A DNA stretch of 31,547 bases from Saccoglossus kowalevskii (Eukaryota; Hemichordata; Enteropneusta; Harrimaniidae): contig NW_003131859.1 in assembly GCF_000003605.2 (NCBI RefSeq), forward strand, positions 341,680-373,226, in the 5' to 3' direction. The translations under genes and the position numbers were made by a program. The notes beneath the pieces are model-generated. The model saw only the letters and a list, made by a program, of their open reading frames with translations, was not told the DNA's origin and made no database searches. Shown here in pieces: positions 2,427-31,038 of the stretch (positions are counted from its first letter, which is position 1; every line of letters starts with the position of its first letter).

Positions 2427-2483
2427 TATCAGACAAATTGACAATATGATTCAATAATTGAGTTATCATGTATATTTGACTAG

Positions 2484-12602: not shown

Positions 12603-12621
12603 TTTCCGTACTATTGCGAGA

Positions 12622-13104: not shown

Positions 13105-13455
13105 AAAGGGTATGCGGTGATGAATTTGTGATCAGCATTGGGGAAGTTGTTTCCCTGACAACTCCAGGGTATCCAGGCTACTATGTAAGCAATACAACAT
13201 GTATATGGAAGGTAACCACAGATGTAGACCGACGTTTGTTTGTCCATGTAGATTTTCTTGATGTCGAGTATGAACATGATTATTTGTATGTAGGCAATGG
13301 AGCCGATTTATATGACAACTCTACTATTTACTACATTACTGGATCTGTGCCACCTGTGGATGTCCTCACCGAGGGTAACCAATTATGGGTTAAGTTTAGT
13401 GCTGATGATTTTATCAATAAACAAGGATTTTCCATGTCCATCTATGATACAATCG
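13105..13455 (+). CDS. Exon: CUB domain preceding the block B propeller
   Basis: A 117-codon exon, phase 1-1 (acceptor ATATTTCAG, donor GTAAGA). It encodes VCGDEFVISIGEVVSLTTPG then YPGYY, TTCIWKVTT, HDYLYVGNG, NQLWVKFSADD and GFSMSIYDTIG: a complete CUB with Cys1 and Cys2 but not Cys3/Cys4. DYLYVGNG and FSADD carry the acidic residues of calcium-binding CUBs. It is closest in style to the CUBc exons (7218, 23648). Since an acceptor opens it in phase 1, at least one coding exon must precede it, consistent with continuation from the SEA domain across the gap. Confidence 0.93.
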
Positions 13456-13574
13456 GTAAGAGTGCCCAATGTTCATTTTTTTTTTTCGTTACTAGTGTCA
13501 AAATTATTAGATATTTTCTGCACTGTGCAATGGTATGCTGTCTCTCGTGATGCAATTCAAATAATATAGTCTAC

Positions 13575-13915
13575 TAATTCCAGGATGCAATGACAATCTC
13601 TTCTAAAACGCAATGCTAGTCTTCCATAATGCAGTATTGATCTCCCGAAATGTAATATCAGTCTTATACTAATGCAATGTAAATCTCCCAGAATGCAATG
13701 TGAATCTCTGAAAATGCAAAGTAAATCTCCCATAATGCAATGCCAGATTCATATGCAATGCAATGCAATGTGGATCTCCCATGATGCAAAGTAAATCTTC
13801 CATAATGCAATGCCAGATTCATATGCAATGCAATGTGAATCTCCCATAATGCAAAGTAAATCTCCCATAATGCAAAGTAAATCTCCCACAATGCAATGCC
13901 ATATTCATATGATGC
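13575..13915. repeat. Degenerate minisatellite built on about 21-bp ATGCAA/TCTCCC units
   Basis: An imperfect array of units such as ATCTCCCATAATGCAAAGTA. A higher-order segment of about 70 bp (AATGCCAGATTCATATGCAA) is repeated at 13739 and 13809, with a diverged third copy near 13896. It fills most of the intron between the CUB exon and the first propeller exon. Confidence 0.85.
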
Positions 13916-14014
13916 AGTGACAATTAAGATTACATAATACAGTTTCAGCATGATTTATAGTTATGATGCAACTTGTATTCAAAATAACAATATAGTTGTG
14001 TGTTTTTTGTACAG

Positions 14015-14251
14015 GTGACTTTATTCTGACTGCTGATTACATTGACAATCTGGGACGTATATTTTTGGATATTCCTGAGGAATCTTACAATCTCAATCTG
14101 CCGATACATTTGGTTGACAAACCAAGACGTGTGTCGTATGATTTTGTCAGTGATGGTATTTACTGGGCAGAAGAAAAAGGTCAGATTAAAGTTGCTGAAC
14201 GCAAGAATGAAAGATACAATGTGCAAACTGTTGCAAGTTGGAAAGTTTCAG
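14015..14251 (+). CDS. Exon: YWTD beta-propeller, first blade, block B
   Basis: A 79-codon exon, phase 1-1 (acceptor TTGTACAG, donor GTAATA). It opens DFILTADYIDNLGRIFLDI, the typical first strand of an LDLR-type propeller (L-x-x-A-D/N-x-x-x-I-x-x-I), and later has VSYDFVSDGIYWAEEKGQIK, a YWTD-type motif in the form IYWAEE. The exon at the equivalent position in block A would lie upstream of this window. Together with the next three exons it makes a propeller of about 270 residues, the normal size for six blades. Confidence 0.88.
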
Positions 14252-15816
14252 GTAATATTGATCAGAATTGTTTTGTTGAAATGTACTTGTTAAATTTCTG
14301 CTAATAGAAATAAAATTAACAAAAAAAATGATAATTATAATTAAGTGAATGCATACTAACATGCATTATTTGTGTTCAAAAGAGTAAAATGCACACAGGA
14401 TTAAAAAAAGGTCACCATTTCAATATGTCTCGCAATTGATTTGCTGAAAATGGTTTTCACAGAAAAAACAATCAACTGTCCAGAGTACCATCTGCAACTG
14501 ATTCAGAAATATCTATGAACAAGGTTAATCAACAGATATATGGACGACGTCTCATAGTATTCAATAATATTTACAGCCATAAATCAAACTTTCATTCTCA
14601 ACATATGTGAGTTAATATGACAACGTCTCATAGTATTCAGTAATATTTACAGCCATAGATAAAATTGTCAACATATGTGAGTTAATATGACAACGTCTCA
14701 TAGTATTCAGTAATATTTACAGCCATAGATAAAATTTTCAACATATGTGAGTTAATATGACAACGTCTCATAGTATTCAGTAATATTTACAGCCATAGAT
14801 AAAGTTTCATTCTCAACATATGTGAGTTAATATGACAACGTCTCATAGTATTCAATAATATTTACAGCCATAGATCAAATTTTCATTCTCAACATATGTG
14901 AGTTAATATGACAACGTCTCATAGTATTCAGTAATATTTACAGCCATAGATCAAATTTTCAACATATGTGAGTTAATATGACAACGTCTCATAGTATTCA
15001 GTAATATTTGCAGCCATAGATAAAATTTTCAACATATGTGAGTTAATATGACAACATCTCATAGTATTCAGTAATATTTACAGCCATAGATAAAATTTTC
15101 AACATATGTGAGTTAATATGACAACGTCTCATAGTATTCAGTAATATTTACAGCCATAGATCAAATTTTCAACATATGTGAGTTAATATGACAACGTCTC
15201 ATAGTATTCAGTAATATTTACAGCCATAGATAAAATTTTCAACATATGTGAGTTAATATGACAACATCTCATAGTATTCAGTAATATTTACAGCCATAGA
15301 TCAAATTTTCATTCTCAACATATGTGAGTTAATATGACAACGTCTCATAGTATTCAGTAATATTTACAGCCATAGATAAAATTTTCATTCTCAACATATG
15401 TGAGTTAATATGACAACGTCTCATAGTATTCAGTAATATTTACAGCCATAGATAACATTTTCAACATATGTGAGTTAATATGACAACGTCTCATAGTATT
15501 CAGTAATATTTACAGCCATAGATAACATTTTCAACATATGTCAGTTAATATGACAACGTCTCATAGTATTCAATAATATTTACAGCCATAGATCAAATTT
15601 TCATTCTCAACATATGTGAGTTAATACATGGGTGAAACAAAAAATTCAAAAACTAAGTTTATATACTGTATATATATTTTTTGATTGAAAGTGCCAAAGT
15701 GTGAATAAACACTCACTGCTAAACATTGCAATATTTCAAATGATTTATTTTTGCATTTCCTGTAATTAACAGTGACCAGCTATAAACTCTGGTGTTGTTT
15801 ACTTTAATTTCCATAG
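14252..15816 (+). other. Intron largely occupied by a 70-bp minisatellite
   Basis: A 1,565-bp intron; about 70% of it is the tandem array at 14537-15627. The flanks show nothing recognisable. Confidence 0.8.
14537..15627. repeat. Minisatellite, 70-bp unit (with 75-77-bp variants), about 15 copies
   Basis: The unit includes GACAACGTCTCATAGTATTC, AGTAATATTTACAGCCATAG, then ATAAAATTTTCAACATATGT and GAGTTAATAT. Some units carry an extra CATTCTC-type insertion that lengthens them to about 75-77 bp, and these alternate with the plain 70-bp form. The first unit (GACGACGTCTCATAG) is more diverged. Confidence 0.97.
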
Positions 15817-15976
15817 ATGTAAAAGGATTGAATATTGATCCACTGTCAAGGAATGTTTACTGGACTGACACTGCCAGGGGAACGATTGAAGTGGTTAATT
15901 TGGAGAACGGTTGGCGTCGTGTTCTGCTTTCAGGGCTTGCCAGGCCTGGCCCAATAGAAGTAGCAGCCGTTTCTGG
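15817..15976 (+). CDS. Exon: YWTD beta-propeller, second blade, block B
   Basis: A 160-bp exon, phase 1 in and phase 2 out (acceptor TTCCATAG, donor GTAATG). It encodes GLNIDPLSRNVYWTDTARGT, then IEVVNLENGWRRVLLSGLAR and PGPIEVAAVSG. NVYWTDTARGTIEV is a textbook YWTD blade. The split Gly codon joins to the next exon, giving VSGWMFWAD, so the phase-2 intron cuts exactly within the next YWTD motif region. Confidence 0.95.
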
Positions 15977-16067
15977 GTAATGAAACAATGTCTATTTTAT
16001 GACTATCAGCATTTCTTCATGAATTGTATCTCTCTCCATATCATCCCTTTAATATTGTATTTTCAAG

Positions 16068-16101
16068 TAAGATCCCACTCTGGGATACGGTTTCAATAAA
16101 G

Positions 16102-16150
<49 letters not shown>
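16068..16150 (+). repeat. (ATT)n microsatellite behind an AATAAAG tail, probable end of a retroelement
   Basis: AAGATCCCACTCTGGGATAC followed by GGTTTCAATAAAG and about 16 ATT triplets. A unique sequence ending in a polyadenylation-like signal and then a simple repeat is the usual look of a truncated non-LTR retroelement or SINE 3' end. The class is inferred only from this form. Confidence 0.6.
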
Positions 16151-16151
<1 letters not shown>

Positions 16152-16179
16152 AAGATACCATTAACTTTTGTTAAGTATA

Positions 16180-16274
16180 GGTTAGATCACAGTCCAAGGT
16201 GACTATGAGAATTTGAACGAGGGCCGTGGGCCAGAATTCTAATTCTCATAGTCACAGAGGGACGTGATCTAACC
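16180..16274. repeat. Inverted repeat (hairpin) element
   Basis: GGTTAGATCAC (16180-16190) pairs with GTGATCTAACC (16264-16274), and GTGACTATGAGAATT (about 16199-16213) pairs with AATTCTCATAGTCAC (about 16241-16255). Two aligned stems around a short GC-rich loop make a 95-bp hairpin, perhaps a small MITE. Confidence 0.75.
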
Positions 16275-16635
16275 GACTTAGCACTGCCCAATAAGCCCGA
16301 GAAAAAATTCGTATTAACCAATCAAAGGATGGCATTTTGAGAGCAATCAAACTTGTGAAATAACATTTTAGTACATTATGTTACATTTTGTCAAAATGAT
16401 GGCCTACGTGCTGCCAGTAGTGTCAGTTGAATCGAGCATAACTCAATGGATACTTTATATCTGATCTTGGTGTTATAAATAAATTGTTGCAATGAAAACC
16501 CTTTGTTTTCTTGCGTTTTTTCAGCTGTGATAAAAGTGAATTCGTGGTGAAATAGAACCACACTTTATCGTGACTCTGATTGGCTGTTGGCCATGTGCTA
16601 AGCTTTGAAATCTAAAAAATATGTTGAGTAGCACA

Positions 16636-16732
16636 CAATGTTTTGACATCACTATGACGTTCGTTTGTCTTGTTTTTTACGTTTGAGTTTACACCTAACA
16701 CATTGTCTTGCAGTGAACAAGAATTGTCTACT
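16636..16732. repeat. Dispersed repeat shared with 12861-12963, copy 2 (CpG-depleted)
   Basis: Same ordered blocks as copy 1 (ATGTTTTGACATCACTATGA, GTTCGTTTGTCTTGTTTTTT, ACGTTTGAGTTTACACCTAA, TTGCAGTGAAC), with fewer CpGs than copy 1, suggesting an older or more methylated copy. Confidence 0.65.
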
Positions 16733-16796
16733 ACATACTAAGTATTTGCATATGGTAATCTAGCATACGTTCCTGACTTAATCAATTTCTTCTTAG

Positions 16797-16939
16797 GTGG
16801 ATGTTCTGGGCAGATAACGAAAACGATGAAGTTAATGCAACTGATAATGTTATTTATCGTGCATACACCAATGGTAGCAATATGGATAGTTTTATCAGGG
16901 GAGTTGGTTATGTGTCTGGAATGGCAATTGACCATAAAG
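16797..16939 (+). CDS. Exon: YWTD beta-propeller, third blade, block B
   Basis: A 143-bp exon, phase 2 in and phase 1 out (acceptor TTCTTAG, donor GTAAGA). It encodes WMFWADNENDEVNATDNVIY then RAYTNGSNMDSFIRG and VSGMAIDHK. WMFWAD is the YWTD motif of this blade and VIYRAYTNGSN the typical I-x-R-A-x-x-x-G strand. The insertion NENDEVNATDN is longer than usual after the motif. The short 118-bp intron that follows contrasts with the more than 1.3 kb intron at the same place in block A. Confidence 0.93.
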
Positions 16940-17057
16940 GTAAGAACTGACCCAAATTATCGATAGTTACCAGTAAACCACTTTTATTTTGTGAGGAACA
17001 AAGTTTAATAAATTTTAAAAGCCTCTCAATGAATAAAATGCTTTTTTTTTTTGACAG

Positions 17058-17324
17058 ATAAAAAGCTGTTTTGGTGTGACTATCGCACCGAAACTGTTGA
17101 AGTATACCATTTTCTGAGTGGAACAAGATCGGTTGTGTTAAATCTAGGTTTGTCAGTATCGATTGACGTTGCTATAGACTCCAACTATATCTATTGGATG
17201 GATCAGTATTCTAAGGATTTGATGCGAGCCGATCGGAGTGGCAATAGTAGTGATACATTCATATCACAGCAGTACTCACTCGGGTGGGGGTTGTACGTGC
17301 AGACTCTTCATTCACAACCTGATG
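17058..17324 (+). CDS. Exon: YWTD beta-propeller, last blades, block B
   Basis: An 89-codon exon, phase 1-1 (acceptor TTTGACAG, donor GTATGT). It encodes DKKLFWCDYRTETVEVYHF, SVSIDVAIDSNYIYWMDQYS and GLYVQTLHSQPDG. KLFWCD and YIYWMD are the two motif strands. It is the paralogue of 1326-1595, with matching motif positions and a matching end. It completes the block B propeller, which visibly spans four exons (14015, 15817, 16797, 17058). Confidence 0.95.
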
Positions 17325-18074
17325 GTATGTGTCATTCATGATATTTATACTGTCTGAAATTTGATGTTTAATTGTGCTCGAGTGAAGTATTTGATTTGCT
17401 CATCATGAAAAGGACAAATGATGTTCTTGCGCAACAGGCACACATTTTTGAACAGTTATATTTGACATATTTGAATAATTGTTGGTCGCTCAGCAGCCGT
17501 GAGTATGATGACCACCATTTTGAATAATTGTTGGTTGCTCAGCAACGTTGAATATGATGACCACCATTTTGAATAATTTTTAGTTGCTCAGCGACTGTCA
17601 ATATGATGACCACCATTTTGAATAATTATCAACTTATGTCAACAGTCACTAAAAACTGGACAGGGACTATGTCATAGACATTGACTTGATTTAACTTTCC
17701 TGTATCTATCACATTAGTTACCTATAAAAGTGTAAACCAACATAATTTTTGATCATCACCTGAAGCCAATAGAAAAAATATTCATTCGGTCAAAAATTAG
17801 TAAAAAATGGCAAAATACTGCAAAATGTTGGATCAATACTTTGATGGGAAAATTATCTTGAAAGGTTGGAGAGCTAATGTGATAGTCCGATCATTATGCA
17901 CCATTCCAAATAGAGTGTCATATTCGGAGTATGTGGAAGAGATTATATGTATTCCCATATGACCAACATGTGACCAATGATTCCACAGATCACAGCAGCC
18001 ACGACATATGTTATAATAAAATAGAGGTACTTACCAATTAAAGTTTCTTTATTAATTGATATTATTCCATGCAG
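17325..18074 (+). other. Intron with a short tandem repeat
   Basis: A 750-bp intron. Besides the three-copy repeat at 17470-17627 I see nothing recognisable. Confidence 0.55.
17470..17627. repeat. Tandem repeat, 49-bp unit, three copies
   Basis: TTGAATAATTGTTGG(T/C)(C/T)GCTCAGC followed by AGTATGATGACCACCATTTT occurs at about 17471, 17520 and 17569, with a partial fourth start at 17618. The copies differ by several substitutions. Confidence 0.9.
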
Positions 18075-18179
18075 GGACAAACATGTGTGCCAATGATAAT
18101 GGCGGTTGCCCGTACTTTTGCTTCCCGATACCCGGAAATGACAGATCTTGTGAAGATCCAGATGGAGGAATTGGGGATG
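18075..18179 (+). CDS. Exon: LDLR-type EGF module following the propeller, block B (four-cysteine form)
   Basis: A 35-codon exon, phase 1-1 (acceptor CATGCAG, donor GTAGGT), exactly the length of its paralogue 2484-2588. It encodes TNMCANDNGGCPYFCFPIPG then RSCEDPDGGIGDG. The NGGC-x2-FC motif identifies the EGF module that follows YWTD propellers. As in the block A copy, only four cysteines are present: CEDPDG stands where CxCPDG is usual and Cys6 is absent. Confidence 0.9.
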
Positions 18180-18393
18180 GTAGGTCAAGTTCCTTATCTC
18201 AGATAAAATATCATTTTCACACAATTTAATCACTGAAGTTATCAAACCACAACTTTGGTTTTGACTGCCAATTAAAGATGGCTTCCAGACTTGCTGGCAA
18301 GTTATATTTCCAGTATATGGGTCTTCGTTCTTTAATATACACAGAAGTTTTTTGTTGATTATAAATTAATATATTTTTTTTCTTTGATCGCAG

Positions 18394-18729
18394 CATGTGG
18401 AGAGTTTGTTGAATTGGAAGAAGCTGAGAACATCACTTTGCACCCACAGTTTGTAAATAGTTATGATTGTGCCTGGATATTCAACACTCAGCCGGGTCGG
18501 TTCGTAGAGGCGACTGTAGATACGACTAGCGTCTCGCAGTCATGTGCTTACAATATATCAGCTGGAAATGGTGTGACGATTGAGAGTGGAATAATTGGTG
18601 CATGGGACCAGTCAGTTGATCTTCACAGAGTTCAAACTTTATTATCCAGTGGGCAAACTTTATGGATACACGCACAATTCTCAGAGGACTGTGCCGTAGA
18701 TGATATTGCTGTTACAGCCAGGGACACAG
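18394..18729 (+). CDS. Exon: divergent CUB domain (CUBa), block B
   Basis: A 112-codon exon, phase 1-1 (acceptor GATCGCAG, donor GTATGA). It starts ACGEFVELEEAENITLHPQF, has YDCAWIFNTQ (Cys2-x-W), SCAYNISAGNG and ends EDCAVDDIAVTARDTG. Like 3598-3936 it lacks SPNYP and carries an extra cysteine pair at the same positions. LWIHAQFSED replaces the normal LW-x-x-F-x-S-D strand. Assignment as CUB rests on this strand order, the Cys spacing and the paralogy. Confidence 0.78.
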
Positions 18730-19206
18730 GTATGACGCATAAGTAGTTGACACAATTTCATATCCTTGGGGCGGACATCCAGACATTTTCACCTCATGGC
18801 AACCAGCACGGTGAAAACAAAGGCCGAAAACCCTCTGAAAACAGTACTTTGGGATGGTTGTTGAGACTCCCCTGAACAGTGTAACAAGATTACCCCTGCG
18901 TGTGTAACGCATACAAATTTTATTTTTCAGGATTACTTCAAAGTTGAGTTCCTGTTGTTTTCTCAAATTTTCATCGGCTCTTCGCTCGTTCCTCAGCAGC
19001 GCACAGAGCCCATAGAAATATGTGGTACAGTGGTGCGTGTCTTAGCAACGTGAAACGTCTTGTGACGTAGCTCCGTCCTGAGGATAGTTGAAGGATAATT
19101 TTTAGTTGAATATTATTAATCCAAAACAATCTTAAAACGAAGCAGCTGTAACTAATTTATTTATCAACACTCAAATATATGTGTAGTCATTAACAATTAT
19201 GCAGGT

Positions 19207-19398: not shown

Positions 19399-19560
19399 TG
19401 TAGATATTGATGGTTTGTTATTTGCGCAGTGATTTGAATATGAATGTCAAATGTATGATAAACTGTAATACTTTCTGTATGATAAAACTAAACTTCTGTA
19501 GACAGTGAAACTTGTGACCACCATTGAATAAAAGACAACCTGTTCAGGGAGTGGTCATTA

Positions 19561-21946
19561 ACACAGATTTGACTCTACTTTGGGTGGTCACTATACACAT
19601 GTTTGACTGTACCTTGGGTGGTTGCTATATACAGGTTTGGCTGTACCTTGGGTGGTCGCTATACACAGGTTTGGCTGTACCTTGGGTGGTCGCTATATAC
19701 AGGTTTGGCTGTACCTTGGGTGGTCGCTAAACACAAATTTGGCTGTACCTTGGGTGGTCGCTATACACAGGTTTGGCTGTACCTTGGGTGGTCGCTATAC
19801 ACAGGTTTGGCTGTACCTTGGGTGGTCACTATACACATGTTTGACTGTACCTTGGATGGTCACTATACACATGTTTGACTGTACCTTGGGTGGTCACTAT
19901 ACACATGTTTGACTGTACCTTGGATGGTCACTATACACATGTTTGACTGTACTTTGGGTGATCGCTATATACAGGTTTGGCTGTACCTTGTGTGGTCACT
20001 ATACACAGGTTTGACTGTACCTTGGGTGGTCACTATACACAGGTTTGACTGTACCTTGGGTGGTCACTATACACATGTTTGACTGTACCTTAGGTGGTCA
20101 CTATACACAGGTTTGACTGTACCTTGGGTGGTCGCTATACACAGGTTTGGCTGTACCTTGGGTGGTCGCTATACACAGGTTTGGCTGTACCTTGGGTGGT
20201 CGCTATACACAGGTTTAGCTGTACCTTGGGTGGTCACTATACACAGGTTTGACTGTACCTTGGGTGGTCACTATACACATGTTTGACTGTACCTTGGGTG
20301 GTGACAATACACATGTTTGACTGTACCTTGGATGGTCACTATACACATGTTTGACTGTACCTTGGGTGTTCACTATACACATGTTTGACTGTACCTTGGG
20401 TGGTCGCTATACACATGTTTGACTGTACCTTGGGTGGTCACTATACACATGTTTGACTGTACCTTGAGTGGTCACTATACACATGTTTGACTGTACCTTG
20501 GGTGGTGACAATACACATGTTTGACTGTACCTTGGGTGGTCACTATACACAGGTTTGACTGTACCTTGGGTGGTCACTATACACATGTTTTACTGTACCT
20601 TGGGTGGTCGCTATACACATGTTTGACTGTACCTTGAATGGTCACTATACACATGTTTGACTGTACCTTGGGTGGTGACAATACACATGTTTTACTGTAC
20701 CTTGGGTGGTGACAATACACATGTTTGACTGTACCTTGGCTGGTCACTATACACAGGTTTGACTGTACTTTGGCTGGTCACTATACACAAGTTTGACTGT
20801 ACCTTGGGTGGTCACTATACACATGTTTGACTGTATCTTGGATGGTCACTATACACAGGTTTGTACCTTGGGTGGCCACTATACACAGGTTTGACTGTAC
20901 CTTGGGTGGTGACAATACACGTTTGACTGTACCTTGGGTGGTGACAATACACATGTTTGACTGTACCTTGGGTGGTGACAATACATGTTTGACTGTACCT
21001 TGGGTGGTGACAATACACATGTTTGACTGTATCTTGGATGGTCACTATACACAGGTTTGTACCTTGGATGGTCACTATACACAGGTTTGACTGTACCTTG
21101 GGTGGTCACTATACACAGGTTTGTACTTTGGCTGGTCACTATACACAAGTTTTACTGTACCTTGGGTGGTCACTATACACATGTTTGACTGTATCTTGGA
21201 TGGTCACTATACACAGGTTTGACTGTACCTTGGGTGGTGACAATACACATGTTTGACTGTACCTTGGGTGGTGACAATACACATGTTTGACTGTACCTTG
21301 GGTGGTGACAATACACATGTTTGACTGTACCTTGGGTGGTCACTATACACAGGTTTGACTGTACCTTGGGTGGTCACTATACACAGGTTTGACTGTACCT
21401 TGGGTGGTAACTATACACAGGTTTGACTGTACTTTGGGTGGTCACTATACACATGTTTGTACCTTGGGTGGCCACTATACACAGGTTTGTACCTTGGGTG
21501 GCCACTATACACAGGTTTGTACCTTGGGTGGCCACTATACACAGGTTTGACTGTACCTTGGGTGGTAACTATACACATGTTTGACTGTACCTTGGGTGGT
21601 CACTATACACATGTTTGTACCTTGGGTGGCCACTATACACAGGTTTGTACCTTGGGTGGCCACTATACACATGTTTGACTGTACTTTGGGTGGTGACAAT
21701 ACACATGTTTGACTGTACCTTGGGCGGTCACTATACACAGGTTTGACTGTACCTTGGGCGGTGACAATACACATGTTTGACTGTACCTTGGGCGGTCACT
21801 ATACACAGGTTTGACTGTACCTTGGGTGGTGACAATACACATGTTTGACTGTACCTTGGGTGGTGACAATACACATGTTTGACTGTACCTTGGCTGGTCA
21901 CTATACACAGGTTTGACTGTACCTTGAGTCGTCACTATACACAGGT
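19561..21946. repeat. Large minisatellite, 34-bp unit, about 70 copies
   Basis: Unit: GTTTGACTGTACCTTGGGTG followed by GTCACTATACACAG. Variants are arranged in zones: GTTTGGCTG with GTCGCTATA dominates the left end, a GTGACAATA form is common from about 20300 onward, and 28-bp units lacking GACTGT (GGTTTGTACCTTGGG) appear from about 20860. The array keeps open frames on both strands for up to about 95 codons; these are not genes. Confidence 0.98.
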
Positions 21947-21995
21947 TCATAAAATTATTCTTTGTTATACTTCAGTTTTTCTGATTTGATTACAG

Positions 21996-22349
21996 ATGGG
22001 TGCGCAGGTGTCTATGATATCACCAATAATGATGAGTATGTCAGAATTACTTCACCGAACTTCCCACTAAAGTACGACAATTCTCGAACTTGCGTCTGGC
22101 TCTTTAGCTCTCCAGCCAACACCAAGATGAACATTAATTTTTGGTCATTCCAAACGGAGGTTGATTCTGATTTATTAGGTTATGGAGTTGGCTTGGATCC
22201 CACACAAGAAACGCTTCAAGATATTTTTTCAGGAGATCACAGACCGACCAATGTTGTCTCTCAAACTAACTTAATGTGGATCTACTTTTCTTCTGATTTG
22301 TTGGTCACAAAGAGAGGATTTGTCTTTGATGTTCATCTCTACAATTCTG
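21996..22349 (+). CDS. Exon: CUB domain (CUBb), block B
   Basis: A 118-codon exon, phase 1-1 (acceptor TTGATTACAG, donor GTATGC). It encodes GCAGVYDI, EYVRITSPNFPLKY, RTCVWLFSSP, NINFWSFQTE, NLMWIYFSSD and GFVFDVHLYNSG. The SPNFP loop, C-x-W and the closing strands are typical CUB. It is the paralogue of 4364-4705, sharing YGxGLxP and RPxNxVS between the domain halves. Only two cysteines are present. Confidence 0.93.
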
Positions 22350-23288
22350 GTATGCATATTTAAGTTTTTGAATTCTGACTCAGCAGTCCAGGGATACTTG
22401 CCTTGATTTTTATGTAGGGGTGTTTCACCACCAGATAAAACTTAATCCTAAAAGATGAATATTGAGAGCATTTTTTTGTTCAAAAATTGCCTAAATGACA
22501 TATGATATTTAAAATTGAAAGAAGTATTTAAATTATTATTGTTCTCCAACTTTTCAAAGAAAATAGCATAAAATCCACCAACATAATAAGATGTTGGCAA
22601 ATTTTGATATTGTCAGCCATGATTGTAAAAGTTTAATCTGGTTTCATTAACCAATTGGATTACTGAGTTTTCTTAATTATTACCTTATATGCAGATATCT
22701 GGTTGCATTGACCAATTGGATTACTGGGTTTTCTTAATTATTACCTTATATGCAGATATCTGGTTGCATTGACCAATTGGATTACTGGGTTTTAATTATT
22801 ACCTAATATGCAGATATCTGGTTGCATTGACCAATTGGATTACTGGGTTTTAATTATTACCTAATATGCAGATATCTGGTTGCATTGACCAATTGGATTA
22901 CTGGGTTTTCTTAATTATTACCTAATATACAGATATCTGGTTGCATTGACCAATTGGATTACTGGGTTTTCTTAATTATTACCTAATATGCAGATATCTG
23001 GTTGCATTGACCAATTGGATTACTGGGTTTTCTTAATTATTTCCTAATATGCAGATATCTGGTTGCATTGACCAATTGGATTACTGGGAATTCTTAATTA
23101 TTACCTAATATGCAGATATCTGGTTGCATTGACCAATTGGATTACTGGGGATTCTTAATTATTACCTAATATGCAGATATAAAAAAATATTACACTGCTT
23201 TGTTATACAAAAAAAACAGCTGTAATAAATATCATTTTCATTGGAGCTGTAAAATGTAATTCAAACTTATTGTATTCATCTGTTTTAG
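22350..23288 (+). other. Intron with a 61-bp minisatellite
   Basis: A 939-bp intron; the array at 22635-23180 occupies more than half. Nothing else is recognisable. Confidence 0.75.
22635..23180. repeat. Minisatellite, 61-bp unit (57-bp variants), about 9 copies
   Basis: Unit: ATCTGGTTGCATTGACCAAT, TGGATTACTGGGTTTTCTTA, ATTATTACCTAATATGCAGAT. Two neighbouring units lack TTCT-type bases and are about 57 bp. The unit contains the palindromes AGATATCT and CCAATTGG. The first unit is most diverged (TTTCATTAACC) and the right-most two carry GGGAATTC/GGGGATTC variants. Confidence 0.96.
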
Positions 23289-23459
23289 TCTGTGAGGAAA
23301 GTGCTATGGTTTGTCCGAATGGCATGTGCTTTTCTGAAAATATTATCTGTGATTATGTGGCCGATTGCAGTGATGGAACTGATGAGAAATATTGCTTTGT
23401 GCCAATGAGGCCAACAGCTTCCTCTTCGCCTATGACAACAGCATTATTTACAACTCCAG
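23289..23459 (+). CDS. Exon: LDL receptor class A repeat plus Ser/Thr-Pro linker, block B
   Basis: A 57-codon exon, phase 1-1 (acceptor TGTTTTAG, donor GTAATA). Six cysteines: CEESAMVC, GMCFSENIIC, DYVADCSDGTDEKYC. The DCSDGTDE calcium-binding motif is intact. A linker (RPTASSSPMTTALFTTP) rich in Ser, Thr and Pro follows and may be O-glycosylated. It is the paralogue of 4899-5060. Confidence 0.96.
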
Positions 23460-23647
23460 GTAATATTCATTATGTATTTTGATAGAATTAAACTTCAAGG
23501 GCCAGTTACTGCAACTTCTGTATTTTTGGCAGAATTTTGTAATTTGAATAAAATATTTCTTGACCAATCAATAAATGATAATCAGATACAGTAAAATTGG
23601 TGCATTATCTGTCAACATTTGTTGATTTTTTTTTCTCTTTTCATTAG

Positions 23648-24001
23648 AGTCAACATGTGGAGAAACAATATACTTACCACCAAATGGAAAAAGAAACATT
23701 ACATCACCAAATTACCCTGAAGACTACCCCCCAGATAGCAACTGCTTGTGGTTGGTGTCGACTGAAGTCGGATACAATATTCGACTAGACTTCACATATG
23801 TTAAGCTTGAAAATACATATGATTATATTTATTTTGGATTTGGAGATGACCCCAGTGATGTTACAACGCAAATAGATGAAATAACAGGCGTTGAAATACC
23901 TCCTGATTACATCGCTAATGGTCGTGACATATGGATACTTTTTACCTCAGATAATATAGTACAGGAAAAAGGTTTTCTTGCATCTGTGTATAGCCTTGAA
24001 G
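23648..24001 (+). CDS. Exon: CUB domain (CUBc), block B
   Basis: A 118-codon exon, phase 1-1 (acceptor TTTTCATTAG, donor GTAGGA). It encodes STCGETIYLPPNGKRNITSP then NYPEDYPPDSNCLW, YDYIYFGFGDDPSD, EIPPDYIANGRDIW and FTSDN, ending GFLASVYSLEG. It is a standard two-cysteine CUB. It is the paralogue of the cysteine-free CUB at 7218-7556 (shared DxPSDD/V, P-x-DY-I/L-A-x-G, FTSDN/D), showing what that copy has lost. Confidence 0.94.
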
Positions 24002-24356: not shown

Positions 24357-24704
24357 GATGTGGAACAGATCTCACTTTAGTAGAAGAAGAAACTACTACA
24401 ATATCATCGCCTAATTACCCAGAGAGCTATGACTTGAACAAAGTTTGCACCTGGATGGTTCACGTTTCAGAAAATCGTGGCATCAGGCTCACCTTCCTGG
24501 CTTTCAACACCGAGGAATGCTGCGATTACTTGACTGTTGGAACTGGAAGTGATATCAATTCAGAAGATTCTGTTATTGCGTCGTATTCCGGAATGGTTGT
24601 TCCAGAAGAGTTAGTTGTCATGTCTCGGGATATATGGATCCAATTTTCATCTGATGTGAGCTTTGCATCATCAGGTTTTGAGATACTCATAAGTGATACT
24701 TCAT
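24357..24704 (+). CDS. Exon: CUB domain (CUBd), block B only
   Basis: A 116-codon exon, phase 1-1 (acceptor ATTGCAG, donor GTACGT). It encodes CGTDLTLVEEETTTISSPNY, KVCTWMVHV, EECCDYLTVGTGSD, DIWIQFSSDVSF and GFEILISDTS: a clear CUB. Two adjacent cysteines (ECCDY) replace the usual single Cys3, with no evident Cys4, leaving an odd arrangement. Block A has an EGF at this point, so this domain was gained in B or lost in A. The last base joins the next exon to give the Phe before the frizzled domain's first Cys. Confidence 0.94.
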
Positions 24705-25443
24705 GTACGTATATAGAGTGTGAGCATGTGCAAGTGTTTCTATGCTGTGCATAAAACAAATAACTGAATATACTAGTATTAAAACAGGATGTCACCTGTG
24801 TATGCGGCAGATGGCCATTGCATACGTCACTTACAAAAAAGCATCTACCCATTTGCCTTAATTGCATTTTTATTGTCGCTTAGCACTCAATTCTTGCATT
24901 CACACTTTGAAGGTCAGTGAAATTCCAAACCTTTGACCAATATTTATATATAAAAATTATACATACCATAAAATACTGAGATTATGGATAGATAATGATA
25001 TATTAATCAATAACCGAATATCAATTTAACCTCTTTTTCACCAGAAAATATTCTTCAATATTTCTGGAAATGAACCCCAATTTTGGAACAAAAGATAAAA
25101 TTTATCTACTTTCAATATATCATTTTTTAGCAAAAACATATTTTAAGTTTTTAACTTGTTCTTGGAAAAATGGTTAACAAATTTGCAAAATGGGAATGCA
25201 ACTTTTAAGACATAACAAAAGATGTGCTTAGTTAAGTTGAATAGTTTTTGAGTTAACAGAAAAAAAACTTATTGCACAGTTATTCTATATTTCCTTGCAT
25301 TTTCACAATCCATTTTAATTTTACTTTAATATTTTATCATCAGTCATAAACAGTTGCAAGCATTGATCTATAGTAATTGTCAAGACAATTACAATTTATG
25401 AACACAATATAAATTAATAACAGTACATTATTTTTGCTTGCAG
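24705..25443 (+). other. Intron with a degenerate dispersed repeat
   Basis: A 739-bp intron. Sequence at about 25030-25205 (AACCTCTTTTTCACCAG, GGAAATGAACCCCAATTTTG) resembles the 3261/28068 element; nothing else is recognised. Confidence 0.5.
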
Positions 25444-25770
25444 TTTGTGTTGACTTATCAACACCCAGTTGTGATCCCTACCGACCGTACAGTGGCCTGA
25501 GAGTCGCCAGTGAAGATAAATCAATGAAGCGAAACAAAAGGCAAAGTGGAGGCGGATTTGAATATGAAGGCTGCCACCAATACATTAATCTTTTCATGTG
25601 TGCCGTCCTTAGTCCAGAGTGTATGTCTAACGGCGATTATCGACAAGTCTGCCAAAGTTTCTGTGATGAAGTGGAAAGTGCTTGTAAATCAGTTATTGAA
25701 GGTGGTGGGAGTGTGTGGACTATTGATTGTTCCACTATGCCGGTGTTGAGTAATGAAACAGGATGTATAG
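25444..25770 (+). CDS. Exon: frizzled cysteine-rich domain 1, with internal furin-type site
   Basis: A 109-codon exon, phase 1-1 (acceptor TTGCTTGCAG, donor GTACGT). Ten cysteines match a frizzled CRD: FCVDLSTPSC, EGCHQYINLFMC, SPEC, QVCQSFCDEVESAC, WTIDC and ETGC. Such domains bind Wnts or lipids in frizzleds and help recognise substrate in the protease corin. Between the second and third cysteines is a long basic and Gly-rich stretch, KSMKRNKRQSGGG, containing R-N-K-R (25530-25541), a furin-type R-x-K-R site. Cleavage there would leave two chains held by disulfides. The domain sits directly after the CUBs, and the second FZ follows two EGF exons. Confidence 0.92.
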
Positions 25771-26509
25771 GTACGTATTTATAGCATTGGTCATTATATT
25801 ATTAACATACTTATTTAAGAACTGACTTGATAGTAAACAGGTGTGTGGACAACAAAGAACTCATCAGGATGTGCATGGGTTTGAGTCCTGCAAATGTCAT
25901 AACCATGTATGGTGATGTGCAATGAAGATTTTACGCTAAGTTATCTCTCACACTTTGCTAGCAATAAAAGCAATCCTGCTTTCCCAGAAATTTTTTTGAA
26001 TAAGGGAATAGGGGCTCAGCGCCCTCATGACATGGCCATGCACCCCCCCTTACCCTGGGGAGCAGATCCTCTGGCAACCATAAAATTCTGATTACATGTG
26101 GCCACAGTCTACAACTGTGACCTATCTGATAATATTTTTGTCCCCAAGGAAGGCTCCATTTTAACTTAGAATTATCAAATACTCCACACCCTTGTAGGGA
26201 GAACCCTTTAGCCCCCACTTGGTGGCGCCGCTGAATTGCAGTGCTCCTGTTTCTTATTCTGTACATGTCAGTTAATGTATTTCTAAAAAATACAGTAGAA
26301 GCTTGGAAATGTTTAGTTGCACAAAAGGTAATGAGTGCTTCTCATGGCAATAATTACAAAATTTATAGTATCTGTATCATTGGTTAATTATTGGGTATCT
26401 TCAGATTTCATATTTTCCTCTTTCACAAATAGGAGTAAAATAGTGGCAGATTTGAAAAAAAGTCTGAAACTTGAGTCTTTTAATAAATGGATTTCATATT
26501 TTGTTTCAG
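25771..26509 (+). other. Intron, no recognisable gene
   Basis: A 739-bp intron with a locally higher-GC stretch (about 25980-26240) that includes short C-runs and looks like part of an unrecognised interspersed repeat. Reading frames on the minus strand there show no family resemblance. Confidence 0.45.
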
Positions 26510-26623
26510 AAATAACAGGGTGCATTGGAAATCCTTGTGTATATGGTGAATGCCAGCCACTGGAAAACACTGATTATGAATGCGATTGCATACCGGGATG
26601 GGAGGGGACAAACTGTGATATTG
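26510..26623 (+). CDS. Exon: EGF-like domain, block B tail
   Basis: A 38-codon exon, phase 1-1 (acceptor TTTGTTTCAG, donor GTAAGC). It encodes GCIGNPCVYGECQPLENTDY then ECDCIPGWEGTNC: six cysteines with the C-x-C-x-PGWEG-x2-C ending. It lies between the two frizzled domains. Confidence 0.94.
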
Positions 26624-27257
26624 GTAAGCTACATTGTATGTCTACTTTACCTGCAAAAACACAAATACTGTTGTTAAAATACATATACTGCGATGAATAT
26701 GATTCTCAAAACAATGTAAATTGGCCATGAAAAAACAACAGAAAACGACTGTCAGACAGTTTTAGTACTGTTTTTTTTGCACATTTACAATAATCTGTTA
26801 CCGGTAATACACCCATATTCACATGCATGCAGCAAGGAAAATCACTATAGCAGGGAACTAGCAAATAAGTTGCCTAATCACCCCTCCTATTGTTGGCACT
26901 ATAACTCAAAACTCATCTATTGGTGACAGTCAAAGATTTGTGATGCTCAAATGTTCAGAGTGGCCTGGTTGGCACCTGGATAATGCTTTAAACTGCCATT
27001 TGACTGAGAGATGTAGTCTGGTTTCCACTTGAGCTTACAATAGTCACATAAAGACTTATCACAAAACTATTATTTAATTAAACATGGAAATAACACTTAA
27101 TTTAGTTTTATCTGTTGTAAAGTATAGTTGTTTGATAGTTTTACAGACTATTTATTTTTTTATTTCTATTTCTCTGCATAGAAATTGCAGGGAATAGTTC
27201 ATAGTTCCTGAAATGATATATCCATATGACATTTTTAATTTTTATTTTCATTCCTAG
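26624..27257 (+). other. Intron, no recognisable feature
   Basis: A 634-bp AT-rich intron; I see nothing in it. Confidence 0.5.
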
Positions 27258-27365
27258 ATACAAATGAATGTGCTGAAGATCCTTGTTTCAATGGTGGTAC
27301 TTGCATCGATGACGTTAACGATTTTTCTTGTCAATGTCCCAACAATACTGCAGGCAAAAATTGCT
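27258..27365 (+). CDS. Exon: calcium-binding EGF-like domain, block B tail
   Basis: A 36-codon exon, phase 1-1 (acceptor CATTCCTAG, donor GTAAGT). It starts [20 protein letters not shown] and continues [16 protein letters not shown]. The D-T-N-E-C start and C-x-D-x4-F-x-C-x-C pattern (including the Asp that can be beta-hydroxylated) are the calcium-binding EGF signature. It is the only calcium-binding EGF in the window. Calcium would stiffen the link to the preceding EGF. Confidence 0.96.
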
Positions 27366-27390
27366 GTAAGTGTTTGCTACTTTAAATTTT

Positions 27391-27485
27391 TAGCTCCGCT
27401 GTCGACTTTGTTGAGCGGAGCTTATCATATGAGTGATTGTCCGTCGTCCGTGTCAATGTTTTACTTTTTCGACTTCTTCTACTTT
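27391..27485. repeat. Dispersed repeat, TTAGCTC(T/C)GCTGTCG family, copy 2
   Basis: TTTTTAGCTCCGCTGTCGAC, GAGCGGAGCTTATCATATGA, GTGATTGTCCGTCGTCCGTG and TTTTTCGACTTCTT, with the same block order as 1797-1925. Further right, ATGGCCGAATGGCAGCCATT (27611) and ATGGCCAACTGGTGGCCATT (27782) may be internal parts of the same longer element. Confidence 0.5.
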
Positions 27486-28067
27486 TAATTTTTTTTAATT
27501 TCTGATGACCAAATAATGTTCAGATGATTACAGATGTGTCCGTCCATATCTCACACATACTCATGTCGATCAAGTTCAAATTTCATTTATTTTTATGATC
27601 TGATTCAAGATGGCCGAATGGCAGCCATTTAAATTCAAAGAGTACATCAAAATAACAAATTTTCGCAATTCTGTAACCAGATCTTAGTCATGTGTGGATG
27701 GATTTGGTTTAAACTTGGTAAATACATTGAACACAATGGGTAATTTATGCAGGTCATTTTATTTTTTCGGAACAAGTTCAAATGGCCAACTGGTGGCCAT
27801 TTTGTTTCAAAGAATGCAGTTCAGGGTCTAAGGATCAAGCATGACTGGACTGATTCAGTTCAAACTTAAAGTTCAAAAATGGTTCAAACTTAGTGCACAA
27901 CACAATAGGTCATATATCACATATATAATATAAGTAATATAAAATATATTGACAATGACTTTTTTAGTTCATGATATAAAATCATAATTTGCCACATAAT
28001 CAACAGTATGGACTATCAAACAAAAATAGTGAAAAATGCATGTTTGCATAAATGCGCATTGAATCTT

Positions 28068-28282
28068 TCTTGCTAAAATTTTTCTGCACTTTTTTAATTA
28101 TATTCTTCAAAATTTCAGGAAATAAACCCTAATTTTGGAGCTAACAGACATAATTTTAGTCAATTTTCAGTTTTTACTCCAAAAATTTGGCTATTTTTTT
28201 TCCATTCTTCAGAAGGAAAGTGCAGACTATATACAGACTATTTTGTGAATTTGTGATGAAAAAAGGGTACTGGTGGTAAAAT
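28068..28282. mobile_element. Dispersed MITE-like element, copy 2 of the 3261-3512 family
   Basis: Shares AAATTTTTCTGC, ATATTCTTCA, GGAGCTAACAGAC, AATTTGGCTATTTTT, GAAGGAAAGTGCA and GACTATTTTGTGAATTTGTG in the same order as 3261-3512, ending GTACTGGTGGTAAAATG. The left inverted end is degraded. Confidence 0.7.
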
Positions 28283-28385
28283 GAATAAATTCCATGATTT
28301 TCTTCATAGTGCAATTTCATGTATGTTTCTGTACTTTTCACTCTTTGGTGTTCTCATTCAAAAAATTGCAAGGAAAATTATGAAC

Positions 28386-28628
28386 TTAACCCTTAGAGCA
28401 CCTGCCAACATTTTTGCACATTTTCATATTTTGTTGGTAAGTACCCTTTGAGGGCCAAAGTCAACTTCAGGCACCATCCACAAAATAGTTCTATTTTATA
28501 GTCTCCTCTTTTCCTTATGAATGTTGATCAAAAACTAGAAGCAATGTCACATTTTGACTGTTTGGTTCGAACTTAGATTGAATTCATTAAAAATTCCAGA
28601 AAGTGTAAACAAATTTACCCCAAATTAA
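28386..28628. mobile_element. TTAA-bounded dispersed element, copy 2 of the 19207-19398 family
   Basis: CTTTGAGGGCCAAAGTCAAC, CACCATCCACAAAATAGT, TATAGTCTCCTCTTTTCC and TTTACCCCAAATTAA correspond in order to blocks of 19207-19398. Homology begins near 28443; the left 55 bp are unrelated. Confidence 0.5.
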
Positions 28629-28821
28629 GCGTAAAAAATGAAGTTTATTTACCAGTAAGACCAAATGAAATTCCATTTGTTACAGTTTTAAGAAAATTTC
28701 TTGAACAATATAGACACAATAATTTACTGTCTATTTTGTGATAGATAAGAAAAGATTACCTTTGACATTCAGAGAATTAAATATAATGCGGGTAATTCAA
28801 ATTTTGTTGTTTATTTTTCAG

Positions 28822-29175
28822 TTTGTCAGCTTGAAACCACTCCAATATGCCAGTCATCTCCGATATCAAAGTACACTGGATCAGGAAGCTTGCTATATAC
28901 AGAAAATGAATTCAACATTTTAATGCATAATCTAACACAGCTTGATTGTTATCCATATACAGACATATTATTATGTGCTTTGTATGACCATCCATGTGAT
29001 GATAACGGCAACACACTGCTACCCTGCAAAGGCTTTTGTCGAGCTGCTAAAAATAACTGTGCCCGTCCACTTGCATTGATTGGTATTACTTGGCCATTTG
29101 AGTGTGATGATCTGCCTGAATCACTAGACCCAACCATATGCTATGGTAGTCAATACATCTTGTATAACACAACTG
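28822..29175 (+). CDS. Exon: frizzled cysteine-rich domain 2
   Basis: A 118-codon exon, phase 1-1 (acceptor TTATTTTTCAG, donor GTAAGT). Ten cysteines: FCQLETTPIC, QLDCYPYTDILLC, HPC, LPCKGFCRAAKNNC, WPFEC and TIC. LLPCKGFCRAAKNNC and ITWPFEC match the frizzled CRD consensus (PCR-x-LC-x-A-x-x-x-C and WP-x-x-x-C). It directly precedes the protease domain, as one of two FZ domains; corin also has two FZ domains upstream of its trypsin domain, though separated by LDLa repeats, not EGFs. Confidence 0.94.
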
Positions 29176-29560
29176 GTAAGTATGATGGAGTTATGCAGAA
29201 TTCATTAACCCTTATCTGGTCAAGTCAATGTAAAAGTAAATAAGACTAGCAGAATAAGGGTAATTACTTCAACAGTTTGTTTCATTGTGAGAAATGTTTC
29301 CAAGTGTTAAATAATTGCCAATTTTATTTGACTCATGAATAAATAATGAAGACATATTTTTCCAGCAAAATGTGTCCTGTTTTTATGTATTTTTCCATAC
29401 ATGTATTTGTTTTCAAAATTTTGAACCAAATATATATAATTATGGCTATGAGCTTTTTGGAAAAATTATAAAAAACATTTTTGGTTTAAAATTTGCTATG
29501 ATGACAAAACTGTGGTGCTCAAAGGCTCTTCTGTTTATACTATTATGTTTGTATTACTAG
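29176..29560 (+). other. Intron, no recognisable feature
   Basis: A 385-bp AT-rich intron before the protease exon; a hydrophobic open stretch at its end is discussed among the rejected items. Confidence 0.5.
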
Positions 29561-29729
29561 GCATTTGTGGAACACGACCAGCATCAGTCGTTAGGAATAG
29601 AATAGTTGGTGGAGATGAATCCTCCCTTGGAGACTGGCCATGGCAAATAGCACTCTACAGATGGGGTGTACACTGGTGTGGAGGTACTGTCATTGACAGC
29701 CAGTGGATTTTGACAGCCGCCCACTGTGT
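29561..29729 (+). CDS. Exon: trypsin-like serine protease domain, activation site and catalytic His
   Basis: A 169-bp exon, phase 1 in and phase 2 out (acceptor ATTACTAG, donor GTGAGT). It encodes [14 protein letters not shown], then [20 protein letters not shown] and [20 protein letters not shown]. The R-IVGG junction is the zymogen activation site (cleavage after Arg). The Cys in GICG is placed to form the disulfide that keeps the protease tied to its long N-terminal part. TAAHC carries the catalytic His (codon 29722-29724). The intron right after the His codon is a common position in this protease family. The exon joins in frame with 30758-31038. Confidence 0.97.
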
Positions 29730-30757
29730 GTGAGTATTTATTTTACCCGGTAGTGCCATGCACGATTCGAACACCAGCAACTGTGTAACTTTGCTATTTG
29801 TTGTATAGTACTTTGTATGATTGGATGAAATAATTGACAAGCAATTCAACTAATTCTATTAATGTGAGCAAATCTTAGAGCCATGTTTTGGGGCTGCAGT
29901 ATCACTTGTATTTTTTTGTTTTCACGCAGTGTGTATTTCAATTAACCCCTGTCGATTTTGGATTTGTGTTCACTGACATATTGGTCACTGTTTATCCCAG
30001 ATCCCTGTTTGATGACTTGCCTATATGATAGACCTCTTTAAGCACCAGTCTCTCTAAACTGAACACCTGCCTTTGTAACTGAACACCTACCATTGTAACT
30101 GAACACCTGCCTTTGTAACTGAACACCTGCCTTTGTAACTGAACACCTACCTTTGTAACTGAACACCTACTTTTGTAACTGAACACCTACCTTTGTAACT
30201 GAACACCTGCCTTTGTAACTGAACACCTACCTTTGTAACTGAACACCTGCCTTTGTAACTGAACACCTGCCTTTGGAACAGAACACCTGCCTTTGTAACT
30301 GAACACCTACCTTTGTAACTGAACACCTACCTTTGTAACTGAACACCTGCCTTTGTAACTGAACACCTACCTTTGTAACTGAACACCTACCTTTGTAACT
30401 GAACACCTACCTTTGTAACTGAACACTTACCTTTGTAACTGAACACCTGCCTTTGTAACTGAACATCTGTCTTTGTAACTGAACACCTACCTTTGTAACT
30501 GAACACCTGCCTTTGTAACTGAACACCTGCCTTTGTAACTGAACACCTGCCTTTGTAACTGAACACCTACCTTTGTAACTGAACACCTGCCTTTGTAACT
30601 GAACACCTGCTTTTGTAACTGAACATCTGCCTTTGTAACGGAACACCTACCTTTGTAAACTTAACATCTATATCATCATTTAACATCATTGTAACTTTTT
30701 ATCATAATTTCAGAATTGAGTTTGTTACAATTGACTTTTGTTTCAATTATATCACAG
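29730..30757 (+). other. Intron with a 20-bp minisatellite
   Basis: A 1,028-bp intron inside the protease domain; 30057-30658 is a tandem array, and the rest is featureless. Confidence 0.85.
30057..30658. repeat. Minisatellite, 20-bp unit, 30 copies in perfect register
   Basis: Unit GAACACCTGCCTTTGTAACT. Thirty consecutive copies show no insertion or deletion, only substitutions; the commonest is CCTGC versus CCTAC, which alternates irregularly along the array. A reverse-strand open frame exists because three units make 60 bp; it is not a gene. Confidence 0.98.
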
Positions 30758-31038
30758 GGAAGGAGACTCAGAGACAATATTCGACGTTATTCTGGGAATT
30801 GTGAACTTAGAAAACTCAGCATCACCTCATAGAGTTGCCAGGCATGTATCGGAAATACACATCCATCCTGGTCGTAATTCAGTAAAACGAGATTATGATT
30901 ATGCACTTCTTCGCTTGAATATGCCGGTAGAGTTCAACGACTTCATACGACCAGCCTGCTTGCCTACAGATGATCCTAATTTTTTCCCTGATACACAGAT
31001 ATGCTATATAACTGGTTGGGGTAGTCTCTATGAAAATG
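30758..31038 (+). CDS. Exon: trypsin-like serine protease domain, middle part with catalytic Asp
   Basis: A 281-bp exon, phase 2 in and phase 1 out (acceptor TATATCACAG, donor GTGAGT). It encodes EGDSETIFDVILGIVNLENS, RDYDYALLRLNMPVEFNDFI, RPACLPTDDPNFFPDTQICY and ITGWGSLYENG. DYALLRL carries the catalytic Asp (codon 30897-30899). RPACLP provides the Cys that usually bonds with the propeptide Cys, and C-x-ITGWG is a standard trypsin-family motif. The catalytic Ser (GDSGGP) and the specificity-pocket residue must lie on exons beyond the window, so activity and specificity cannot be confirmed. Confidence 0.97.

Follow-up and report, generated by a model that had tools for sequence, protein, structure and literature searches.

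A predicted mosaic serine protease gene of Saccoglossus kowalevskii with an LRP-type propeller, CUB, LDLa and Frizzled modules ahead of trypsin

Introduction

Corin and enteropeptidase are type II transmembrane serine proteases, in which an extracellular stem helps to select the target. In zymogens of this class, the activating cleavage falls ahead of IVGG, and a bond of the Cys1-Cys122 type retains the catalytic chain. The stem of enteropeptidase includes MAM and SRCR domains; in corin, arrays of LDLa repeats lie between the first and second Frizzled domains (FZ1 and FZ2) and after FZ2, and SRCR follows. MFRP has CUB and LDLa modules and then FZ, with neither a protease nor a propeller. Corin has been described as membrane-bound, with a tail at its N-terminus, two FZ domains, eight LDLa repeats, a scavenger-receptor domain and a C-terminal trypsin domain, and the legend to the figure in that account names no CUB, EGF or propeller (PMC9138375). 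The present report concerns a 31.5-kb stretch of the genome of the enteropneust Saccoglossus kowalevskii (contig C2346, 341680-373226; hereafter the window, in which positions are counted unless a contig is named), where exons for a propeller, CUB, LDLa and FZ modules precede exons for trypsin.

The evidence gathered here leads us to propose, with a probability of roughly 0.6, that the window holds a single gene, encoding an extracellular mosaic serine protease of very large size and of the corin/enteropeptidase sort, the stem of which would dock a substrate, a partner or matrix. An earlier sequence-only reading of the same DNA had arrived at an unfamiliar protease architecture, and its claims are taken up where the pertinent results are given.

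Results

The exon array of the window

Exons were located by hand on the plus strand, each with an AG acceptor and a GT donor. The window has 28 of them (Table 1), 11 in unit A (1326-11703) and 17 in unit B (13105-31038), the two units being divided by a run of 837 N. The 17 GT-AG exons of unit B are compatible in phase and pass through 1392 codons without a stop; the sequence-only reading, too, had seen an uninterrupted, frame-compatible series. They encode, in order, CUB–propeller–EGF–CUB–CUB–LDLa–CUB–CUB–FZ–EGF–EGF–FZ–trypsin, with the first two exons of trypsin within the window. That reading began the array at 13105 or 14015, which is probably too late: the 11 exons of unit A are likewise in frame, with no stop in 695 residues, and probably belong to this gene as its 5' portion. 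Unit A opens with the second half of a propeller and continues with an EGF, a divergent CUB, a CUB, an LDLa, a CUB, three EGF and half of a SEA domain. It enters the N run in phase 2, and a phase 2 to phase 1 exon inside the gap would join it to the first CUB of unit B (CUB a), for a combined length above 2,080 residues. The core propeller–EGF–CUB–CUB–LDLa–CUB is common to the two units, which are 43% identical in the propeller exon and 24% identical in the divergent CUB.

The trypsin domain

In the joined chain, the two trypsin exons match the Pfam profile at 116 bits over positions 1-132 of 220. The RIVGG activation site, AAHC (His57) and DYDYALL (Asp102) are intact by eye, in agreement with what had been seen before. 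The nearest solved chains are TMPRSS6 (E 4.9e-30), TMPRSS2 and enteropeptidase. A Cys in the linker ahead of RIVGG and another in RPACLP are placed as in a protease tied to its stem by a bond, which is presumed here. Three further loci, described below, share the FZ–EGF–EGF–FZ–trypsin end. All three have the GDSGGP of Ser195 and full-length matches to the Trypsin profile, and inspection by eye finds His57, Asp102, Ser195 and Asp189 kept in each. Because the full triad and Asp189 are present in these relatives, specificity for Lys/Arg is to be expected of the trypsin domain.

The stem

Pfam was run on single exons and on joined chains, and domains were also compared with solved structures. The propeller and its EGF had been called complete, and residues ~12-300 of 304 do align by phmmer to LRP2, LRP4 and LRP6; the values against single-propeller chains are E 9.2e-26 for LRP4 and E 2.6e-23 for LRP6. 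For its six blades there are five YWTD motifs plus an opening strand, which is also the pattern of LRP6. In those propeller exons that were scanned, the Pfam class B repeat is either missing or scores too low to pass. Unit B has a feature of LRP/LDLR receptors, a YWTD propeller with a closing EGF.

The count of five CUB domains in unit B also stands. Four pass Pfam, and the fifth exon (18394-18729) has no Pfam CUB match. A fold model from this single sequence was poor, with a mean predicted local distance difference test score (pLDDT) of 57; a fold search with it gave no match at E <=0.001, and CUB chains came at ranks 33 and 39 among the best 50. The assignment was decided by profile comparison and not by the fold search: aligned with its unit A partner and compared with a profile of seven CUBs, the exon gave an hhalign probability of 95.8% (E 7.7e-9). 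The LDLa that had been read from the letters passes the Pfam cut-off of 24.1 bits as an exon and falls below it in the whole chain. Both FZ domains pass and have ten cysteines each, again as first read; their best solved matches are sizzled for FZ1 (E 4.1e-6) and FZD8 for FZ2 (E 7.5e-10), and to judge by these matches the two domains are diverged. Of the two EGFs between them, the first has tblastn matches (E 1e-4 to 4e-4) in the equivalent position of three further loci. The SEA domain of unit A scores 24.8 bits in the whole chain, just below the cut-off of 26.4. Chance is excluded by these scores as the source of the domain assignments. Outside the unread 5' part and the gap, neither the unit A chain nor the unit B chain has a Pfam match to SRCR or MAM, which bears out the contention that the architecture is unlike that of corin and enteropeptidase.

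Within FZ1 there is a furin-type R-X-K-R motif (RNKR before QSGG), possibly a second processing site; FZ1 of the three related loci has no R-X-K/R-R motif.

The same end at other loci

The genome assembly (572 Mb) was mapped for trypsin and FZ, which gave at least 106 and at least 38 exon matches, respectively, with only the best candidates scored. A trypsin exon lies on the same strand within 7 kb downstream of 10 of the 38 FZ matches: two in the window, two in C1058, two in C2858, three in C2346:284-288k and one in C1652. The genome has four genes besides that of the window with FZ upstream of trypsin. The end FZ–EGF–EGF–FZ–trypsin itself occurs at four loci (the window, C1058, C2858 and C2346:281-289k) behind different fronts: propeller and CUB at two, LDLa and CUB with a likely membrane anchor at one, and extra FZ and EGF at one.

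The locus most like the window is on the minus strand of C1058. Over 20 kb it has an unassigned exon, an exon at the position of a CUB, a propeller, EGF, CUB, LDLa, three EGF, two LDLa, CUB, CUB, FZ, EGF, EGF, FZ and a complete trypsin domain. The same order from propeller to trypsin is thus found a second time, which upholds the earlier view of a front end coupled to a protease. Propeller exons 1-3 match LRP4 over several repeats (E 4.5e-28) and a single LRP6 propeller (8.7e-10). Searches support these three exons, the first CUB, the full trypsin, the second of the three EGF (EGF b) and the third LDLa; tblastn supports EGF a, LDLa 2, two CUBs, both FZ, both EGFs between them and two trypsin exons. 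The propeller exons (1-2, 2-1) and the first trypsin exons (1-2, 2-1) have the split phases of those in the window, as given by the best-scoring splice sites with phase unconstrained; for the other exons, the splice-site search required phase 1 at one end or at both. An open exon-like stretch, from phase 0 to phase 1, lies 157 bases 5' of the exon at the CUB position. The longest intron of this locus contains partial CUB-like and LDLa-like copies. A short match to the SEA exons of the window elsewhere upstream in C1058 (E 0.001) was not used.

On the plus strand of C2858 are three LDLa (29-43 bits), CUB, CUB, FZ, EGF, EGF, FZ and a complete trypsin domain. Upstream lie an exon for an Ig domain (I-set, 29 bits), one rich in Ser/Thr and a signal-anchor exon that encodes a cytoplasmic tail and a helix and exits in phase 1; it was the one candidate on the strand of the gene, the opposite strand giving none. 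We infer that this upstream part and the FZ–trypsin end form a single gene, and C2858 would then probably encode a type II membrane protease. The locus at C2346:281-289k reads EGF, EGF, FZ, FZ, EGF, EGF, FZ and a complete trypsin domain. Its neighbour on the minus strand (C2346:264-280k) is a further protease gene, in which several exons for LDLa, CUB and trypsin were seen.

The FZ domains of these loci correspond by position. In all six comparisons, FZ1 of the window is nearer to the FZ1 of another locus than to its FZ2 (35/26, 37/31 and 36/32% identity), and FZ2 is nearer to FZ2 than to FZ1 (33/24, 29/25 and 32/27%). On account of this likeness of FZ1 to FZ1 and FZ2 to FZ2, the FZ–EGF–EGF–FZ–trypsin end was probably copied as a unit.

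The remaining gene, on the plus strand at C1652:59.9-71.0k, has a full trypsin domain together with one FZ and seven LDLa, of which tblastn finds six and inspection by eye the seventh. A propeller exon similar to that of the window occurs on the minus strand of C3768 (69000-75999), near a probable membrane helix and tail. This locus was rejected as a further protease, there being no other window exon in the 7 kb and no trypsin match on the contig; perhaps it is a receptor-like relative without a protease.

Discussion

One gene or several

Frame compatibility was discarded as proof of a single gene: nearly all modules are of phase 1-1, so that any would fit, and compatible phases are therefore weak evidence. 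The test relied instead on the order of modules at other loci and on the lengths of the intervals between exons. If each junction from CUB a to exon 2 of trypsin is measured in whichever available copy (unit B, unit A or C1058) has the shorter interval, all 16 are <=750 bases and 13 are <450. The region from 13105 to 31038 is thus quite probably one gene. It might instead be two neighbours, a propeller/CUB receptor-like protein that would run to ~18729 or 24704, followed by a separately encoded CUB–FZ–EGF–EGF–FZ–trypsin protease, a division we consider unlikely. Phase 1-1 modules would look joined between any two such genes, the FZ–trypsin end occurs at C2858 and C2346:281-289k with no propeller recognised, and 3266 bases with a large minisatellite part 18729 from 21996. 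That interval, however, is mostly a 34-base minisatellite, and its counterpart in unit A is 427 bases long with the identical order of modules on either side. Moreover, propeller and trypsin stand in one array at C1058. A scan for signal-peptide-like first exons covered 11 intervals (those at LDLa–CUB c, CUB c–CUB d and EGF 1–EGF 2 not among them) and found none in 10 of them; the single candidate, at 24789-24912 between CUB d and FZ1, speaks for two genes.

The connection of unit A to unit B is less secure. Unit A could be a separate upstream gene for a membrane-bound receptor ending in SEA, with unit B starting in the N gap, which we regard as doubtful and nonetheless likelier than a division within unit B. 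SEA domains often adjoin a membrane helix, the junction is hidden by the gap, and the shared propeller–EGF–CUB–CUB–LDLa–CUB core fits a tandem duplication of genes as well as an internal one. Against this, no start exon was found in 12603-13104, and at C1058 the open stretch just 5' of the CUB-position exon, of a domain type not established, exits in phase 1. As for an assembly artefact, with misjoined contigs or collapsed repeats bringing unrelated exons together, the N gap and several minisatellites within the window might invite the idea. It is very improbable, because the order is repeated at C1058 and the end module is repeated at C2858 and C2346:281-289k. For the same reason, a misjoin between 17324 and 29561, which the sequence-only reading had named as a way in which it could be wrong, is unlikely.

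Several observations weigh against a single gene for an active, stem-docked protease. The gene model comes from genomic sequence alone, the link from unit A to unit B crosses the N gap, the true N-terminus falls in N sequence, and the one signal-peptide-like candidate is on the strand of the gene, with none on the reverse strand. The exon for Ser195 lies beyond the end of the window, where the next 30 kb read N. At C1058, five assignments score below the Pfam cut-off or have no match and rest on position and pattern, namely LDLa 1, EGF c, the EGF of the propeller and each half of the last propeller exon. That last exon also shifts frame in its middle; this copy may be decaying or misassembled there. 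Two proposals at the same locus were given up: the exon upstream of the CUB-position exon is SEA-like by eye with no Pfam support, and the CUB-position exon is unsupported by search as a CUB. No propeller was recognised in the stretches read of C2858 (7.8 kb of N within) or C2346:281-289k, and since two of the three other loci with the common end thus lack a recognised one, the propeller is not established as a fixed part of the family. A signal anchor was not found upstream of the genes at C2346:281-289k or C1652. Finally, in the FZ tree none of seven branches was well supported, and in the trypsin tree one of three was, joining only C1058 and C2858; the trees were used for identities alone.

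A model for the protein

If the window does contain one gene for a mosaic protease, then its N-terminus would, by analogy with C2858, be a membrane anchor. The protein would be made as a zymogen, and its propeller, CUB, LDLa and FZ modules would dock it to a substrate, a partner or matrix, much as the stem of enteropeptidase or corin contributes to the choice of target. A trypsin-like enzyme would activate it by cutting at R|IVGG, the catalytic domain would remain tied to the stem through a disulfide of the Cys1-Cys122 type, and the active enzyme would then cut the docked protein after Lys or Arg. The sequence-only reading had proposed a front end that binds a Wnt or lipoprotein. Propellers and FZ domains bind many ligands, and the FZ domains here are diverged; to name a Wnt or a lipoprotein as the ligand of the stem is a guess. 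A more specific version is a long shot. In it, an LRP5/6-like propeller and Frizzled cysteine-rich domains, ectodomains that Wnt otherwise engages on separate receptors, are fused in one chain to an active trypsin, and the membrane-bound enzyme, gated by ligand, would cut ligands of the Wnt pathway, or others that are lipid-modified or lipoproteins, while binding them. Hardly more probable is a scavenger, decoy or protein like a Wnt co-receptor, with the protease secondary or inactive. Propeller and FZ are, it is true, extracellular parts of LRP5/6 and Frizzled, and Ser195 of the window gene has not been seen. On the other side, its His57, Asp102 and activation site are intact, and the three relatives have the full triad with Asp189 by eye and full-length Trypsin matches.

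Comparison with known proteins

The window gene resembles corin in having two FZ and an LDLa ahead of a C-terminal trypsin. It differs in its CUB, EGF and propeller modules, in the two EGFs between the FZ domains, in an interval of only 385 bases from FZ2 to trypsin and in the absence of an SRCR match in either unit; the C1652 gene looks closer to corin. With enteropeptidase it shares SEA, LDLa, CUB and a trypsin of the TMPRSS/enteropeptidase type with a linker Cys; FZ and a propeller are present, and no MAM or SRCR was found. CUB and LDLa followed by FZ are common to it and MFRP, whereas the propeller and the trypsin after FZ2 are found only in the window gene. The likeness to LRP4, LRP5, LRP6, LRP2 and LDLR lies in the YWTD propeller closed by an EGF, which in those receptors leads to a type I membrane helix and an endocytic tail and in the window to CUB, FZ and trypsin.

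The unfamiliarity claimed for this architecture holds in part. It is distinct from the named families, and among the literature matches listed for the architecture there was no protein that combines a propeller with a protease. The four other genes of this genome with FZ upstream of trypsin make it less singular, and a lineage-specific arrangement is unsurprising because trypsin domain architectures are reported to show little conservation across animals (PMC6767649). It is best regarded as a new arrangement within a familiar class of mosaic proteases. One lineage with four loci that carry the same FZ–EGF–EGF–FZ–trypsin end behind different fronts offers a case of stem swapping in cell-surface proteases; should the choice of substrate lie with the stem, these loci amount to natural domain swaps for testing that choice.

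Features of the window

Table 1. Exons and assembly gap in the window (positions counted from its first nucleotide)
Feature	Position	Strand	Phase	Evidence or remark
Unit A propeller, second half, two YWTD-type repeats	1326..1595	+	1-1	Pfam 19.6 bits (cut-off 21); compared for identity with 17058-17324
Unit A EGF after propeller	2484..2588	+		FXa_inhibition and EGF_LRP2 matches below cut-off
Unit A divergent CUB	3598..3936	+		no Pfam match; profile comparison with CUBs
Unit A CUB	4364..4705	+		Pfam 67 bits
Unit A LDLa	4899..5060	+		Pfam 40 bits
Unit A CUB	7218..7556	+		Pfam 50 bits
Unit A EGF 1	7925..8038	+		Pfam EGF (three stretches in unit A)
Unit A EGF 2	8850..8963	+		Pfam EGF (three stretches in unit A)
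Unit A EGF 3	10526..10645	+		Pfam EGF (three stretches in unit A)
SEA, first part	11201..11313	+	1-0	Pfam SEA 30.8 bits for the two SEA exons alone, profile 2-55 of 106
SEA, second part, running into assembly gap	11633..11703	+	0-2	Pfam jointly with 11201..11313
N run, 837 bases	11766..12602	.		remainder of SEA and link to 13105 expected inside
Unit B CUB a	13105..13455	+		Pfam 56 bits
Unit B propeller exon 1: closing strand and YWTD repeat 1	14015..14251	+		splice model; phmmer against solved LRP propellers
Unit B propeller exon 2	15817..15976	+	1-2	phmmer against solved LRP propellers
Unit B propeller exon 3	16797..16939	+	2-1	phmmer against solved LRP propellers
Unit B propeller exon 4: YWTD repeats 4 and 5	17058..17324	+		phmmer against solved LRP propellers
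Unit B EGF after propeller	18075..18179	+		phmmer against solved LRP propellers
Unit B divergent CUB	18394..18729	+		hhalign to CUB profile; no Pfam CUB match
Unit B CUB b	21996..22349	+		Pfam 64 bits
Unit B LDLa	23289..23459	+		Pfam 28.3 bits exon alone, 21.8 in chain
Unit B CUB c	23648..24001	+		Pfam 72 bits
Unit B CUB d	24357..24704	+		Pfam 78 bits
Unit B FZ1, ten Cys	25444..25770	+		Pfam 46 bits
Unit B EGF 1 between FZ domains	26510..26623	+		Pfam EGF 14.9 bits (below cut-off); six Cys by eye
Unit B EGF 2 between FZ domains	27258..27365	+		Pfam EGF 29.6 bits
Unit B FZ2, ten Cys	28822..29175	+		Pfam 50 bits
Trypsin exon 1: linker Cys, activation site R|IVGG, His57	29561..29729	+	1-2	Pfam 53 bits
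Trypsin exon 2: Asp102 and presumed Cys partner of linker Cys	30758..31038	+	2-1	Pfam 61.5 bits

The introns contain large minisatellites, at 1-794 (49-base unit), 14538-15603 (70), 19551-21947 (34, in ~72 copies), 22636-23180 (61) and 30057-30658 (20). At the right edge of the N gap, the translation of 12604-12780 is nearly identical to that of the reverse complement of 11896-12087 in C1058; the segment resembles a dispersed repeat and may be what caused the assembly gap.

The mitochondrial contig

In contig C4830 of the same assembly, which is mitochondrial, COX1 is on the strand opposite to COX2 and ND1. ATA occurs at sites of COX1 that we take to be Ile (NVIVTAHAF, PIMIGGFGNW), and AAA occurs at sites of ND1 and COX2 presumed to be Lys in other animals. 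TGA is found inside COX1, one Ser site reads AGA, no AGG was seen within COX1, COX2 or ND1, and the Lys transfer RNA has the anticodon TTT. For Saccoglossus kowalevskii, the published table gives ATA as Ile, AAA as Lys, AGA as Ser, no AGG and a Lys anticodon UUU (PMC3121625, Table 3); the same source lists AAA as Asn in echinoderms and Balanoglossus as without AAA, and the ATA and AAA assignments agree in PMC2697986. The code of C4830 matches the published Saccoglossus row, which makes an acorn worm, Saccoglossus or a near relative, the likely source of the assembly, and gene order is not decisive.

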